DNA of 64,000 nucleotides from Chthonomonas sp. GTDB taxonomy: Bacteria; Armatimonadota; Fimbriimonadia; Fimbriimonadales; Fimbriimonadaceae. The stretch lies in the NCBI GenBank assembly GCA_016788425.1, contig JAEURQ010000001.1, positions 186,001-250,000 of the forward strand, written 5' to 3'. Of the stretch, positions 2,449 to 5,846 are shown in pieces (the stretch's first letter is position 1; every line of letters starts with the position of its first letter). The translations under genes were made by a program, and so were the position numbers. The notes beneath the pieces are model-generated. The model searched no databases. It was not told where the DNA came from and worked only from the letters and a program-made list of their open reading frames with translations.

Positions 2449-3558
2449 GTGAAGCCGTATCCCCGCACCTGGATGGAAGTTGACTTGGCCGCCCTGCGCC
2501 ATAACGTGGCGGTGATTCGACAGACCATTGGGGCCGACCACAAACTCGGCTTGGTCGCCAAGGCCGACGCGTACGGCCACGGACTGGTGCCAGTCGGGCG
2601 GTTCGCCATTCAAAACGGGGTGGACTGGCTTTGCGTCGCCACCGTGCAAGAAGGCATCGCGCTACGCGACGCGGGCATCGAAGCTCCGCTGCTGGTGCTT
2701 AGCCCGATCTTGCCCATTGAGGCCGAGCAGGCTGTGTTCTACCGCTTGCGCGTGCAGGTGGAAGACATGCTCGTGGTGGACGCCCTCAGCGAGGCGGCCC
2801 TCCGCCAGGACACCAAGGCGCACGTTCACTTGAAGGTGGACACCGGGATTAGCCGGTTCGGCGCGACTCCGGTCGAAGCGAGTGACCTCGCGATCGCCAT
2901 CAGCCGCACCGAAGGGATCGACCTGGAGGGTATCAGCACGCACTTTGCCGACTCCGCGAACGACCCCGAGCGTACGGCGGGGCAGATGCGCAAGTTTCAG
3001 GCGGTGCTCGATGTGTGCCGCTCGCAGGGCATTCATTTTCGCGTGATTCACGAGGCGAATAGCGCGGGGACGATTCGATTTCCTGCCGCTCGGCAGCAAC
3101 TGGTTCGCGTCGGTATCGCGGCGTACGGCATCAATCCGTACGGGCTGGAAGTGGCCCAGCCGCTCGTTCCGGTGATGACCTGGAAGGCGCGCATTATGGG
3201 AATCCGGACTCGTCCCGCCGGGACTTGGGTGAGCTACGGCAGCACGCGGCAACTCGATCGGAACACCCGGATCGCGACGCTCGGCGTTGGTTACGGCGAC
3301 GGCTATCCGCGGGGGCTCAGCAACACCGGGGCGGTGCTGGTCGGTGGAGCGCGATGCGCGGTCCTCGGGCTGGTTTGCATGGACCAGATCCTGGTGGACG
3401 TCACCGATGTGGCGGCAGAAGTCGGCGATGACGCCGAACTCTTGGGGAAGTCAATCTTGGTGCCCGAGCTCGCGGCTCAGTTGGAGACCAATTCGCACGA
3501 GGTCATCACCCGTATCATGAGCCGGGTGCCGCGCCGGTACATCCACCCTGCGGGCTAA
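2449..3558 (+). CDS. alr: Alanine racemase
   Basis: PLP enzyme that makes D-alanine for peptidoglycan. The 369-residue protein opens with PRTWMEVDLAALRHN, carries the PLP lysine in LVAKADAYGHG (about K38), the substrate-side strand HLKVDTGISRFG, the catalytic tyrosine in WVSYGSTR (about Y263) and the VCMDQILVDVTD segment close to the C-terminal domain. The start is GTG at 2449, chosen because it gives the normal N-terminus; an AGGGG stretch lies 8 nt upstream. It follows pyrD at 13 bp. No terminator is visible between its stop and the first GGGGAGAG hairpin that begins 9 nt later. Confidence 0.96.
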   Translation: MKPYPRTWMEVDLAALRHNVAVIRQTIGADHKLGLVAKADAYGHGLVPVGRFAIQNGVDWLCVATVQEGIALRDAGIEAPLLVLSPILPIEAEQAVFYRLRVQVEDMLVVDALSEAALRQDTKAHVHLKVDTGISRFGATPVEASDLAIAISRTEGIDLEGISTHFADSANDPERTAGQMRKFQAVLDVCRSQGIHFRVIHEANSAGTIRFPAARQQLVRVGIAAYGINPYGLEVAQPLVPVMTWKARIMGIRTRPAGTWVSYGSTRQLDRNTRIATLGVGYGDGYPRGLSNTGAVLVGGARCAVLGLVCMDQILVDVTDVAAEVGDDAELLGKSILVPELAAQLETNSHEVITRIMSRVPRRYIHPAG

Positions 3559-3566
3559 CAAAAAGC

Positions 3567-3608
3567 GGACCCTAGTCAGCAAGGGGAGAGAGCGCCAACA
3601 TCAGGTCC
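3567..3608 (+). repeat. GGGGAGAG hairpin element, copy A
   Basis: Closing stem GGACC (3567-3571) with GGTCC (3604-3608). The core AAGGGGAGAG is at 3581-3590. Its 26 nt from 3567 match copy B with two mismatches, 210 bp apart. It starts 9 nt after the alr stop codon. Confidence 0.65.
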
Positions 3609-3776
3609 ACTTTCAGTATTGCCGTTTTTTGACCGGGAATTGGCAGAGAATTCTAAAACTTTGGGACTTGCCCGAACAAAAAAAGGCTAACGCTTAACAA
3701 CGTTATGATCTTCCGAAATGTTCACTAACATTCTTTGCAACAATGTTCGCAAGATGCAACTTCAATTTTTTATGTA

Positions 3777-3816
3777 GGACCCTGGTCAACAAGGGGAGAG
3801 AGTCGACCTCGGGCCC
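3777..3816 (+). repeat. GGGGAGAG hairpin element, copy B
   Basis: Closing stem GGACCC (3777-3782) with GGGCCC (3811-3816), having one A-C mismatch and an extra outer A-T pair. An inner stem GGTC (3784-3787) with GACC (3805-3808) encloses the core AAGGGGAGAG at 3791-3800. Confidence 0.6.
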
Positions 3817-3910
3817 TATTGAGTTTTAGCCCATTCAACGAATATCTTAGTTGAAAATTTTAGCGCATGGGGTCAAAGTTGGCACAAATGCGCTGAATAG
3901 CGCAATTTGA

Positions 3911-3951
3911 GCCGAAATCCGATTAAGGGGAGAGTGAATCGGAACTCCGGC
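3911..3951 (+). repeat. GGGGAGAG hairpin element, copy C
   Basis: Outer stem GCCG (3911-3914) with CGGC (3948-3951). Inner stem CCGATT (3919-3924) with AATCGG (3937-3942) presents the 12-nt loop containing AAGGGGAGAG (3925-3934). This is the copy with the clearest helix directly under the loop. Confidence 0.65.
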
Positions 3952-4018
3952 CCACTAATCTCGTACCACAATATCGTTATTGCGTCCCTAATTTCTGTCT
4001 AAATCTTAACAATTCACA

Positions 4019-4065
4019 AGGAGCCGCTGACGTCTCGGAGAGGGTAAGGGCCGCCATTAGCTCCT
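4019..4065 (+). repeat. GGGGAGAG hairpin element, copy D (variant core)
   Basis: Closing stem AGGAGC (4019-4024) with GCTCCT (4060-4065), six perfect pairs. The core is the variant CGGAGAGGG at 4036-4044. Compared with copy A, the fourth stem pair has changed from C-G to G-C on both sides, a compensatory change. Confidence 0.5.
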
Positions 4066-4095
4066 CATGATGTGCTGATAACAAGGTCAACAAGT

Positions 4096-4141
4096 GGAGC
4101 CTTCGGGTTGTACGGGGAGAGGTGTCAAACCTTCCAGCTCC
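4096..4141 (+). repeat. GGGGAGAG hairpin element, copy E
   Basis: Closing stem GGAGC (4096-4100) with GCTCC (4137-4141), the same pair type as copy D. An inner GGTT (4106-4109) can pair with AACC (4128-4131). The core GGGGAGAG is at 4114-4121. Just upstream, 4085-4099 repeats 15 nt of copy B (3784-3798) with one mismatch. Confidence 0.55.
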
Positions 4142-4277
4142 GAGTTGTATGACGACTATTTTGCCGCCATGGGGGGCAAAAGCCTGGTTTGCGGCCCGGA
4201 ATCGGGACCCCGTTAGGACCGAATCCTAAACACTGCCAAAGATTGTTCGCAACATTTTTAGAATTACGGCGGGCACA

Positions 4278-4308
4278 GAAAAGTTCGGCGGGTATTGGCC
4301 GCCGAACT
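4278..4308 (-). terminator. Rho-independent terminator of glnA
   Basis: On the minus strand a 10-bp perfect stem, AGTTCGGCGG paired with CCGCCGAACT (plus coordinates 4282-4291 and 4299-4308), has a 7-nt loop and runs straight into TTTTC. It lies 24-54 nt after the glnA stop. Confidence 0.88.
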
Positions 4309-4331: not shown

Positions 4332-5741
4332 TTAGTTGTCGCTGTAGAGATAGAACTCGTACGGGTGCGGACGCAGGTCCATCGCATCGCACTCGACCTT
4401 GAGCTTGTACTCGATATAGGTTTCGATAAGGTCCTTGGTGAACACGTCGCCCTTCAGCAGGAAGTCGTGATCGTTCTTCAGCGCGTCCAGCGTGAGTCGA
4501 AGCGAACCCGGGGTTTGGGCGATGTTCTTCTTCTCGGCGGCGGGCAGTTCGTACAGGTCCTTGTCCATCGGCTTCGGCGGCTCAATCTTGTTCTGAATCC
4601 CGTCAATGCCAGCCATCATGCACGCGGCAAACGCCAGGTACGGGTTGGCCATGGGGTCCGGAGCGCGGAACTCGATACGCTTGGCCTTGCGCGATTTGCT
4701 CTGCACCGGAATGCGGACGCACGCGCTGCGGTTGCGGCTGGAGTACATCAGGTTGATCGGCGCTTCGTAACCCGGCACCAGGCGTCGGTACGAGTTGGTC
4801 GTCGGCGCGCAGATGGCGAGCAAGGCGGGAGCATGCTTGAGGATGCCGCCCACATACCAGCGCGCGGTGTCGCTGAGTCCGCCGTAACCCGCGTCGTCGT
4901 ACATCAGCGTGTCGCCGTTCTTCCAAAGCGACATGTGAATGTGCATGCCCGAGCCGTTATCGCCAAAGACCGGCTTCGGCATAAAGGTCGCTGCGAGGCC
5001 GTAATTGTAGGCCACGTTCTTGATGACGTACTTGTACATCTGCATCCGATCGGCCATGGTGAGCAGCGTGTCGAAGCGCATGTCGATTTCCATTTGGCCG
5101 GCCGCGCCGACCTCGTGGTGGTGCATTTCGGTATGGATGCCGAGGTCCAGGAGCGTGAGCATCATTTCGCTGCGCACATCTTGGTATTTGTCGCTCGGTG
5201 CACACGGATAGTAGCCACCCTTCGGGCGGTGCGTAAAGCCAATGCTGTCCTCTTCGCCCGAGTTCCAATAGGCTTCGGGGCTGTCCACTTCGAAGAACGA
5301 ACCGTGCGATTCGTTGGCGTAGCGCATCTTGCTGAACAGGAAGAATTCGGCTTCGGGGCCGAAGAAGGCGGTGTCGGCGATGCCAGTTGTGCGCAGATAC
5401 TGCTCGGCCTTTTTGGCGACGTAGCGCGGATCGCGGCTGTAAGGCTCGCGGGTGATCGGGTCTTCGATGTTGCAGATGATGACCGCGGTGGGGTGCTCGG
5501 CGAACGGATCCATGAAGATGGTGTCGGCTTCCGGAATCAGCAGCATGTCCGATTCGTTGATCGCTTGGAACCCGCGGATGCTCGATCCATCGAAGCCCAA
5601 TCCTTCTTCAAAGGTGTCTTCAGTGAAATCGGTCGCCGCGATGGTGAAGTGCTGCCATTGACCGAAGAGGTCCGTGAATCGAATGTCGACGAGACGAGCT
5701 TCGTTGTCGTGCACGAACTGCACAGCTTCTTTTATTGTCAT
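4332..5741 (-). CDS. glnA: Glutamine synthetase, type I (GSI-beta-like)
   Basis: Makes glutamine from glutamate, ammonia and ATP in the cytoplasm as a dodecamer. With the start at 5741 (MTIKEAVQFVHDNEARLVDIRFTD) the protein is 469 residues, the same as E. coli GlnA; this start has GGAG six bases upstream, unlike the in-frame ATG at 5768. Visible motifs are HHHEVGAAGQMEIDMRF, FGDNGSGMHIHMSLW, the ATP-site segment PGYEAPINLMYSSRNRSA and FRAPDPMANPYLAFA. A tyrosine in MDKDLYELPAAE matches the adenylylation site of GSI-beta enzymes, so covalent control is possible. It lies 105 bp downstream of carA on the same strand, pairing glutamine synthesis with a glutamine consumer, and has its own terminator. 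Confidence 0.97.
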   Translation of the reverse strand: MTIKEAVQFVHDNEARLVDIRFTDLFGQWQHFTIAATDFTEDTFEEGLGFDGSSIRGFQAINESDMLLIPEADTIFMDPFAEHPTAVIICNIEDPITREPYSRDPRYVAKKAEQYLRTTGIADTAFFGPEAEFFLFSKMRYANESHGSFFEVDSPEAYWNSGEEDSIGFTHRPKGGYYPCAPSDKYQDVRSEMMLTLLDLGIHTEMHHHEVGAAGQMEIDMRFDTLLTMADRMQMYKYVIKNVAYNYGLAATFMPKPVFGDNGSGMHIHMSLWKNGDTLMYDDAGYGGLSDTARWYVGGILKHAPALLAICAPTTNSYRRLVPGYEAPINLMYSSRNRSACVRIPVQSKSRKAKRIEFRAPDPMANPYLAFAACMMAGIDGIQNKIEPPKPMDKDLYELPAAEKKNIAQTPGSLRLTLDALKNDHDFLLKGDVFTKDLIETYIEYKLKVECDAMDLRPHPYEFYLYSDN

Positions 5742-5846
5742 TTTTTCTCCGTGGTTGAACCAGAGCACCAGCGATCCAGCTACGGAATTACAGTATCCCT
5801 CAAAGGCACCCGCGAAACTACGTGGAAGTTTGTGTCTTTTCCACCG

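Follow-up and report, generated by a model that had tools for sequence, protein, structure and literature searches.

The window analyzed here is a stretch of 64,000 nucleotides from a genome of 2.67 Mb. In it, alr (2449-3558, plus strand) and glnA (4332-5768, minus strand), both confirmed by Pfam, converge on an AT-rich gap of 770 bases. The gap holds five hairpins on the minus strand, E1 to E5, which run from 4143 to 3560 with E1 first in the sense direction. The initial annotation had described this region as AT-richer and devoid of ORFs, and this is what we see: the G+C content of the array region is 47.6% (vs. 60.6%), and no ORF of at least 60 aa is present in it. The features are as follows, the scores in bits being those of the covariance model R3 (see below).

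3556-3558, plus strand: stop codon of alr, adjoining the U-tract of the array
3560-3564, minus strand: U5 tract after the E5 core hairpin, the probable intrinsic terminator of the array (from its sequence and from U-tract enrichment in homologues)
3562-3613, minus strand: hairpin E5, with a 12-bp outer stem, a 7-bp inner stem, and loop CUCUCUCCCCU; 43.1 bits
3615-3620, minus strand: possible -10 box of E5, AATACT, at a position that roughly fits the homologues
3775-3818, minus strand: hairpin E4, outer stem UAGGGCCC/GGGUCCUA, inner stem GGUCGAC/GUUGACC, loop UCUCUCCCCUU; 45.0 bits
3908-3954, minus strand: hairpin E3, outer stem UGGGCCGGAG/UUUCGGCUCA, inner stem CCGAUU/AAUCGG, loop CACUCUCCCCUU; 42.7 bits
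4014-4070, minus strand: hairpin E2, with a 12-bp outer stem and a larger loop containing CCCUCUCCGA; 33.2 bits
4085-4099, minus strand: degenerate partial unit CTCCACTTGTTGACC beside E1, 14/15 like the loop and 3' arm of E4 (direct repeat D1)
4094-4143, minus strand: hairpin E1, outer stem GGAGCU/GGCUCC, inner stem imperfect, loop ACCUCUCCCC; 37.8 bits (E = 3.2e-6 in 1.0 Mb of its own genome, E1 being part of the training set)
4146-4151, minus strand: possible -10 box of E1, CATACA, weak and found by sequence inspection
4282-4308: terminator hairpin between glnA and the array, followed by TTTTCT on the minus strand

Each unit has an outer stem of 8-12 bp, or 6 bp in E1, and an inner stem of 5-7 bp, imperfect in E1 and E2, with a short asymmetric internal loop between them. 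The apical loop carries CUCUCCCC in four of the five units, the most diverged loop being that of E2 with CCCUCUCCGA. The glnA terminator had been noted initially, and with this hairpin lying between glnA and the array, the latter is probably transcribed separately. Only E5 is followed by a U-tract. Promoter signals within the array are weak; upstream of E1, a promoter matrix favors AATAGT, farther upstream, over CATACA, and the -10 signal over the five copies jointly is borderline (permutation p = 0.053).

Further elements lie near the units. A 17-nt direct repeat at 3739-3755 and 4239-4255 (minus strand ATCTTGCGAACATTGTT and ATGTTGCGAACAATCTT, with a TTGCGAACA core) occurs once upstream of E5 and, at a distance of 500 nt, again upstream of E1, and a perfect inverted repeat, AATGTT-AGTG-AACATT, lies near the copy at 3739-3755. 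These repeats are possible operator sites. Between E3 and E4 there is a GCGC-rich hairpin (3860-3896) that does not possess the loop motif.

All five elements listed in the initial annotation were found at their positions. Their purine core is GGGGAGAG at 3583, 3793, 3927, and 4114, and CGGAGAGG in the fourth element in the order used there. Since CTCTCCCC occurs only 27 times on both strands of about 91% of the genome, four occurrences within 550 nt are not due to chance. The closing stems that had been described are real; they belong, however, to the minus strand, and the inner stem of 5-7 bp within each had been missed. On this strand, the fold z-scores relative to shuffled sequences are -5.15 for E5, -3.68 for E4, -3.92 for E3, -3.44 for E2, and -1.20 for E1, which folds least convincingly. 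The corresponding plus-strand values are -0.5, -0.5, -1.2, +0.4, and -0.9, and the region as a whole gives -5.3 on the minus strand vs. -0.7 on the plus strand. Judged by its folding, the predicted RNA is encoded on the minus strand.

The choice of strand bears directly on one idea raised initially, that of a protein sponge comparable to CsrB/RsmZ. Such an RNA would titrate CsrA and come from the plus strand, with GGGGAGAG in its loops. CsrA recognizes GGA, the plus-strand loops contain GGA, and the suggested search for CsrA did find it encoded in the genome (G000:C1:8176-8331, E = 1e-24). The sponge itself, though, is unsupported on that strand: plus-strand folding is no better than that of shuffles, plus-strand matches to the covariance model score at noise level, the sense hairpin is more stable than its antisense counterpart in 56 of 70 copies, and the promoters and U-tracts described below also indicate the opposite strand, the one with CUCUCCCC loops. 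The sense loops contain no GGA, and a CsrB-type sponge was rejected as extremely unlikely.

Homologues were sought with covariance models. The first, R1, was built from the five window copies using a hand-fitted, N-padded alignment; therefore, pair counts on those five copies lean towards structure. It matched a single copy in each of two genomes, the only one of the same genus (E = 1.9e-4) and one from another genus of the Fimbriimonadaceae (E = 0.0043). Retraining on 7 copies (R2) and on 17 (R3) brought in more. Such a search of relatives, which is independent of those pair counts, had been put forward as a check on the array, and it yielded more copies with compensatory pairs.

In a survey of 291 Armatimonadota genomes (E ≤ 0.01), the hairpin was matched in 30 of 85 Fimbriimonadaceae genomes vs. 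1 of the 206 others in the phylum, this single match being longer and doubtful. The exact 13-mer TTGCTCTCCCCTT has 58 sites in 40 of the 85 family genomes, with nine for the backwards pattern used as a control. Scanning public genomes with a 20-base loop pattern returned 17 stretches, which come from Armatimonadota or from records labeled Fimbriimonadaceae, Fimbriimonadia, Chthonomonadaceae, or 'Chthonomonas sp.', one being labeled Chloroflexi. The hairpin family looks to be confined to the Fimbriimonadaceae, with predicted copies in about half of the sampled genomes of that family. A 16-mer search of viral contigs gave 12 matches, none with the full hairpin, and DNA-level homologues of the whole region were found neither among 60 relatives nor in plasmids.

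Several GC-rich model matches (L045, L049, and L052 in one genome, G012, as well as L054, L063, and L079) were discarded as chance or as some other repeat. Genome G012 possesses a dispersed GC-rich palindromic repeat, CCCCTCACCCCAACCCCTCTCCCC, which matches the model weakly and is seemingly an unrelated, REP-type element. In genus g6, a second CTCTCCCC occurs 220-260 nt from the main hairpin (L035, at 1258 and 1521; L042, at 1520 and 1739), and this genus may have small arrays as well.

Rfam 15 gave no match in the window at the gathering score. When ten loci were compared with Rfam at E values up to 10, no match covered any copy, and there were only chance matches elsewhere. By the standard of Rfam, the predicted sRNA is a new family.

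In an alignment of 70 distinct copies, fitted to the model, 87.5% of the cells are paired, and each of the 15 pairs has examples in which both partners have changed. The score for covariation reaches 0.82, compared with 0.22 for shuffled and 0.06-0.18 for slid controls. The approximately 60 copies from outside the window covary at all 15 pairs, most of them with the loop UUGCUCUCCCCUU. Together with the results of the genome searches, this excludes a chance origin of the hairpin family. The loop contains CUCUCCCC in 64 of 66 copies, a degree of conservation that should be regarded as overstated to some extent, because the search for copies relied in part on the loop motif. A G precedes CUCUCCCC in 60 of the 61 other copies vs. 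none of the five window copies. These comparisons show the predicted unit to be a two-stem hairpin in which pairing and a C/U-rich loop are conserved. The suggestion of a regulatory RNA array of unknown family fits this evidence, including the homologues with compensatory pairs, as does that of a C-rich anti-SD RNA exposing CUCUCCCC in its loop if the other strand were transcribed.

Signals of an own promoter and terminator, weak in the window copies, are present in the homologues. Outside the window, the hairpin is approximately 50 nt long, and in 39 of 50 copies CUCUCC is preceded, at a distance of 26-29 nt, by the end of a TATAAT-like -10 box. Matches of at least 5/6 to this box occur at the expected place in 20 of 60 copies vs. 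0-3 of 60 in five intervals farther upstream. TTGC or TTGA at a spacing of exactly 17 nt from the -10 box is found in 9 of 46 copies (other spacings, 0-3), with L091 and L121 reading TTGACA-17-TACAAT and TTGACA-17-TATAGT. A search for operators upstream turned up chiefly TTGC/CGCAA words, and these were traced in part to the -35 box. Of 61 copies, 27 have a U-rich tract after the hairpin, vs. 4 with one farther on.

If transcription sets in some 7 nt downstream of the -10 box, the RNA would begin at the base of the hairpin, and the promoter, hairpin, and U-tract signals together would define a gene of about 55 nt. We infer that many copies are stand-alone mini-genes of this length with a housekeeping-type promoter and a terminator. 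The array reported initially is indeed five-copy in the window, but the usual unit elsewhere is a single mini-gene.

One should keep in mind that a hairpin followed by a U-tract may be nothing more than a transcription terminator, here placed between often convergent genes and without function in trans. U-tracts stand behind many copies, the downstream gene is convergent in 33 of 59 copies, and E5 adjoins the alr stop codon. A terminator would not be expected to conserve a 12-base loop, however, nor to have a -10 box, and sometimes a -35 box at 17 nt, at its 5' base. The 5' A-run needed for a bidirectional terminator is present in only 3 of 61 copies, and E1-E4 are not followed by U-tracts at all. 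We consider this explanation improbable.

The genes next to the hairpin vary, but a single layout is seen repeatedly, with a PF00144 gene (beta-lactamase/serine hydrolase family) upstream and a convergent etfA downstream. As roughly ten copies have etfA as their neighbor, among them the sixth copy of the window's own genome (L056, G000:C1:313167-313213), the ancestral site probably adjoins etfA. A search of 91% of this genome revealed no additional copy with a comparable score, with the exception of a degenerate hairpin at C2:148923. The array was not found at glnA in relatives. A conserved glnA 3' UTR was considered and rejected, since none of the relatives examined, not even that of the same genus, has a matching region downstream of glnA. 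The array looks like a lineage-specific, local tandem expansion, because one arm of E4 and E5 is identical at 24 of 26 nt (direct repeat D2) and a partial unit lies beside E1.

Two other loci possess features of their own. In genome G001 (L034), the sRNA hairpin is convergent with a Crp/Fnr-like gene, and a near-perfect palindrome, TTGTAACATTTGTTACAA, lies approximately 120 nt upstream of it (about 1375-1395). Close to glnA and downstream of it in genome G008 (L006, from about 3550), a frame starting MATRVLGIDVGTNSIGWALV resembles the start of a Cas9 protein.

Array copies may in part be decaying, because their promoter signals are weak and U-tracts are missing from E1-E4. Taken to its conclusion, this would reduce the whole array to decaying copies of the gene linked to etfA, with no function of their own, an explanation with which the diverged loops of E1 and E2 and the partial unit at 4085-4099 also agree. 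Yet the stems of E2-E5 are still well paired through compensatory differences, and CUCUCCCC is retained in four of the five copies, so that decay of the entire array is quite unlikely.

Our leading hypothesis is antisense action in trans: the array would be an amplified sRNA gene family of the Fimbriimonadaceae, the loops of which pair with G-rich start regions, a reading to which we assign a probability of roughly 50%. The window would express five units in tandem from the minus strand, with a clear terminator only at the last unit; any promoters belonging to E1-E4 would be weak at best, or these units would be read through to the E5 terminator. The products would be RNAs with one to five C-rich loops. 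Each loop would present CUCUCCCC for pairing in trans with G-rich, GGGGAGAG-like sites near the start codons of mRNAs and would thereby block ribosome binding, and additional copies would increase both the dose and the number of loops. Hfq is encoded in the genome.

Among 1619 genes of the window's own genome (simple ORF calls), none has GGGGAGAG in its start region; loop-to-start-region duplexes in this genome are not clearly better than those of shuffled loops, and its GGGGAGAG sites, checked one by one, gave no support for a target. When the loop complement was sought before ATG across the family, mostly the hairpins themselves were recovered, with the remainder at about the level of the reversed control. 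Three matches at start regions are not hairpins (L154, L144, and L151); they belong to ThDP-enzyme-like and pyrB-like genes in genome G013 and to a 68-aa ORF in genome G123, as named from sequence. These should be interpreted with care, as any purine-rich site favors a position in the start region.

The lack of supported mRNA targets in these searches is one point in favor of the main rival to antisense pairing, in which the sRNA genes carry a protein-binding loop that titrates or guides an RNA-binding protein, the array being a stronger decoy. An almost invariant loop on variable stems would suit such a role, and similar loops in tandem recall known sponge architecture. Against this, no candidate CUCUCCCC-binding protein was found, CsrA being present but GGA-recognizing, and the array loops hold only CUCUCCCC while their flanks change, where a protein site would more likely conserve the flanks. 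We regard a protein-binding loop as rather unlikely, though less so than the terminator and decay explanations.

With antisense pairing as the best guess, a defined, testable sRNA family is proposed in a phylum that has been little studied. Its promoter, strand, and ends are predicted, and its loop is open to functional tests; among the papers searched, none dealt with small RNAs of Fimbriimonas. Few designs for an sRNA that acts through its loop could be simpler than a gene made of one hairpin, and the way in which this gene has moved and multiplied hints at how the dose of an sRNA and the number of its loops may change in evolution. It can be proposed, tentatively, that a hairpin of about 50 nt serves as 5' end, recognition loop, and terminator at once, that it works with a protein partner or with the Armatimonadota translation machinery, and that its dose is set through tandem amplification.

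Several known systems should be considered when classifying this family. CsrB/RsmZ sponges also possess repeated hairpins that share a loop motif, but theirs is GGA, which is absent from the loops of the predicted transcribed strand, where CUCUCCCC occupies this place. The family does have the conserved, unpaired loop characteristic of those antisense sRNAs that act through C/U-rich loops. The sRNA sX13 of Xanthomonas uses C-rich apical loops against G-rich motifs close to start codons (PMC3771888). Apical loops of this kind are shared with the present hairpins, whereas sX13 is 115 nt long, has three stems and CCCC-type loops, and belongs to another lineage. RepG of Helicobacter pylori has its seed in the C/U-rich loop of the terminator hairpin, a hairpin that is sufficient alone (PMC8295292). 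The likeness lies in a C/U-rich loop within a terminator hairpin; RepG differs in that its target, a G-repeat, is known and that it has more than one stem-loop, the sequence comparison consisting of the absence of an Rfam match.

The alphaproteobacterial alpha-r14 family, which includes NfeR1, displays an identical anti-SD motif in three hairpins, the stems of which differ freely (PMC10746234). These cuckoo sRNAs and the Fimbriimonadaceae hairpins have in common an ultraconserved, C/U-rich, unpaired motif that is repeated on variable stems. The motif is CCUCCUCCC there vs. CUCUCCCC here, and the host is alphaproteobacterial there vs. Armatimonadota here, which places the hairpins outside alpha-r14. 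While NfeR1 has three hairpins, the Fimbriimonadaceae unit, a candidate sRNA, is usually a single-hairpin gene. On these comparisons, the predicted family resembles the sRNAs with C/U-rich loops, in a form pared down to one hairpin per gene and, in this genome, amplified.
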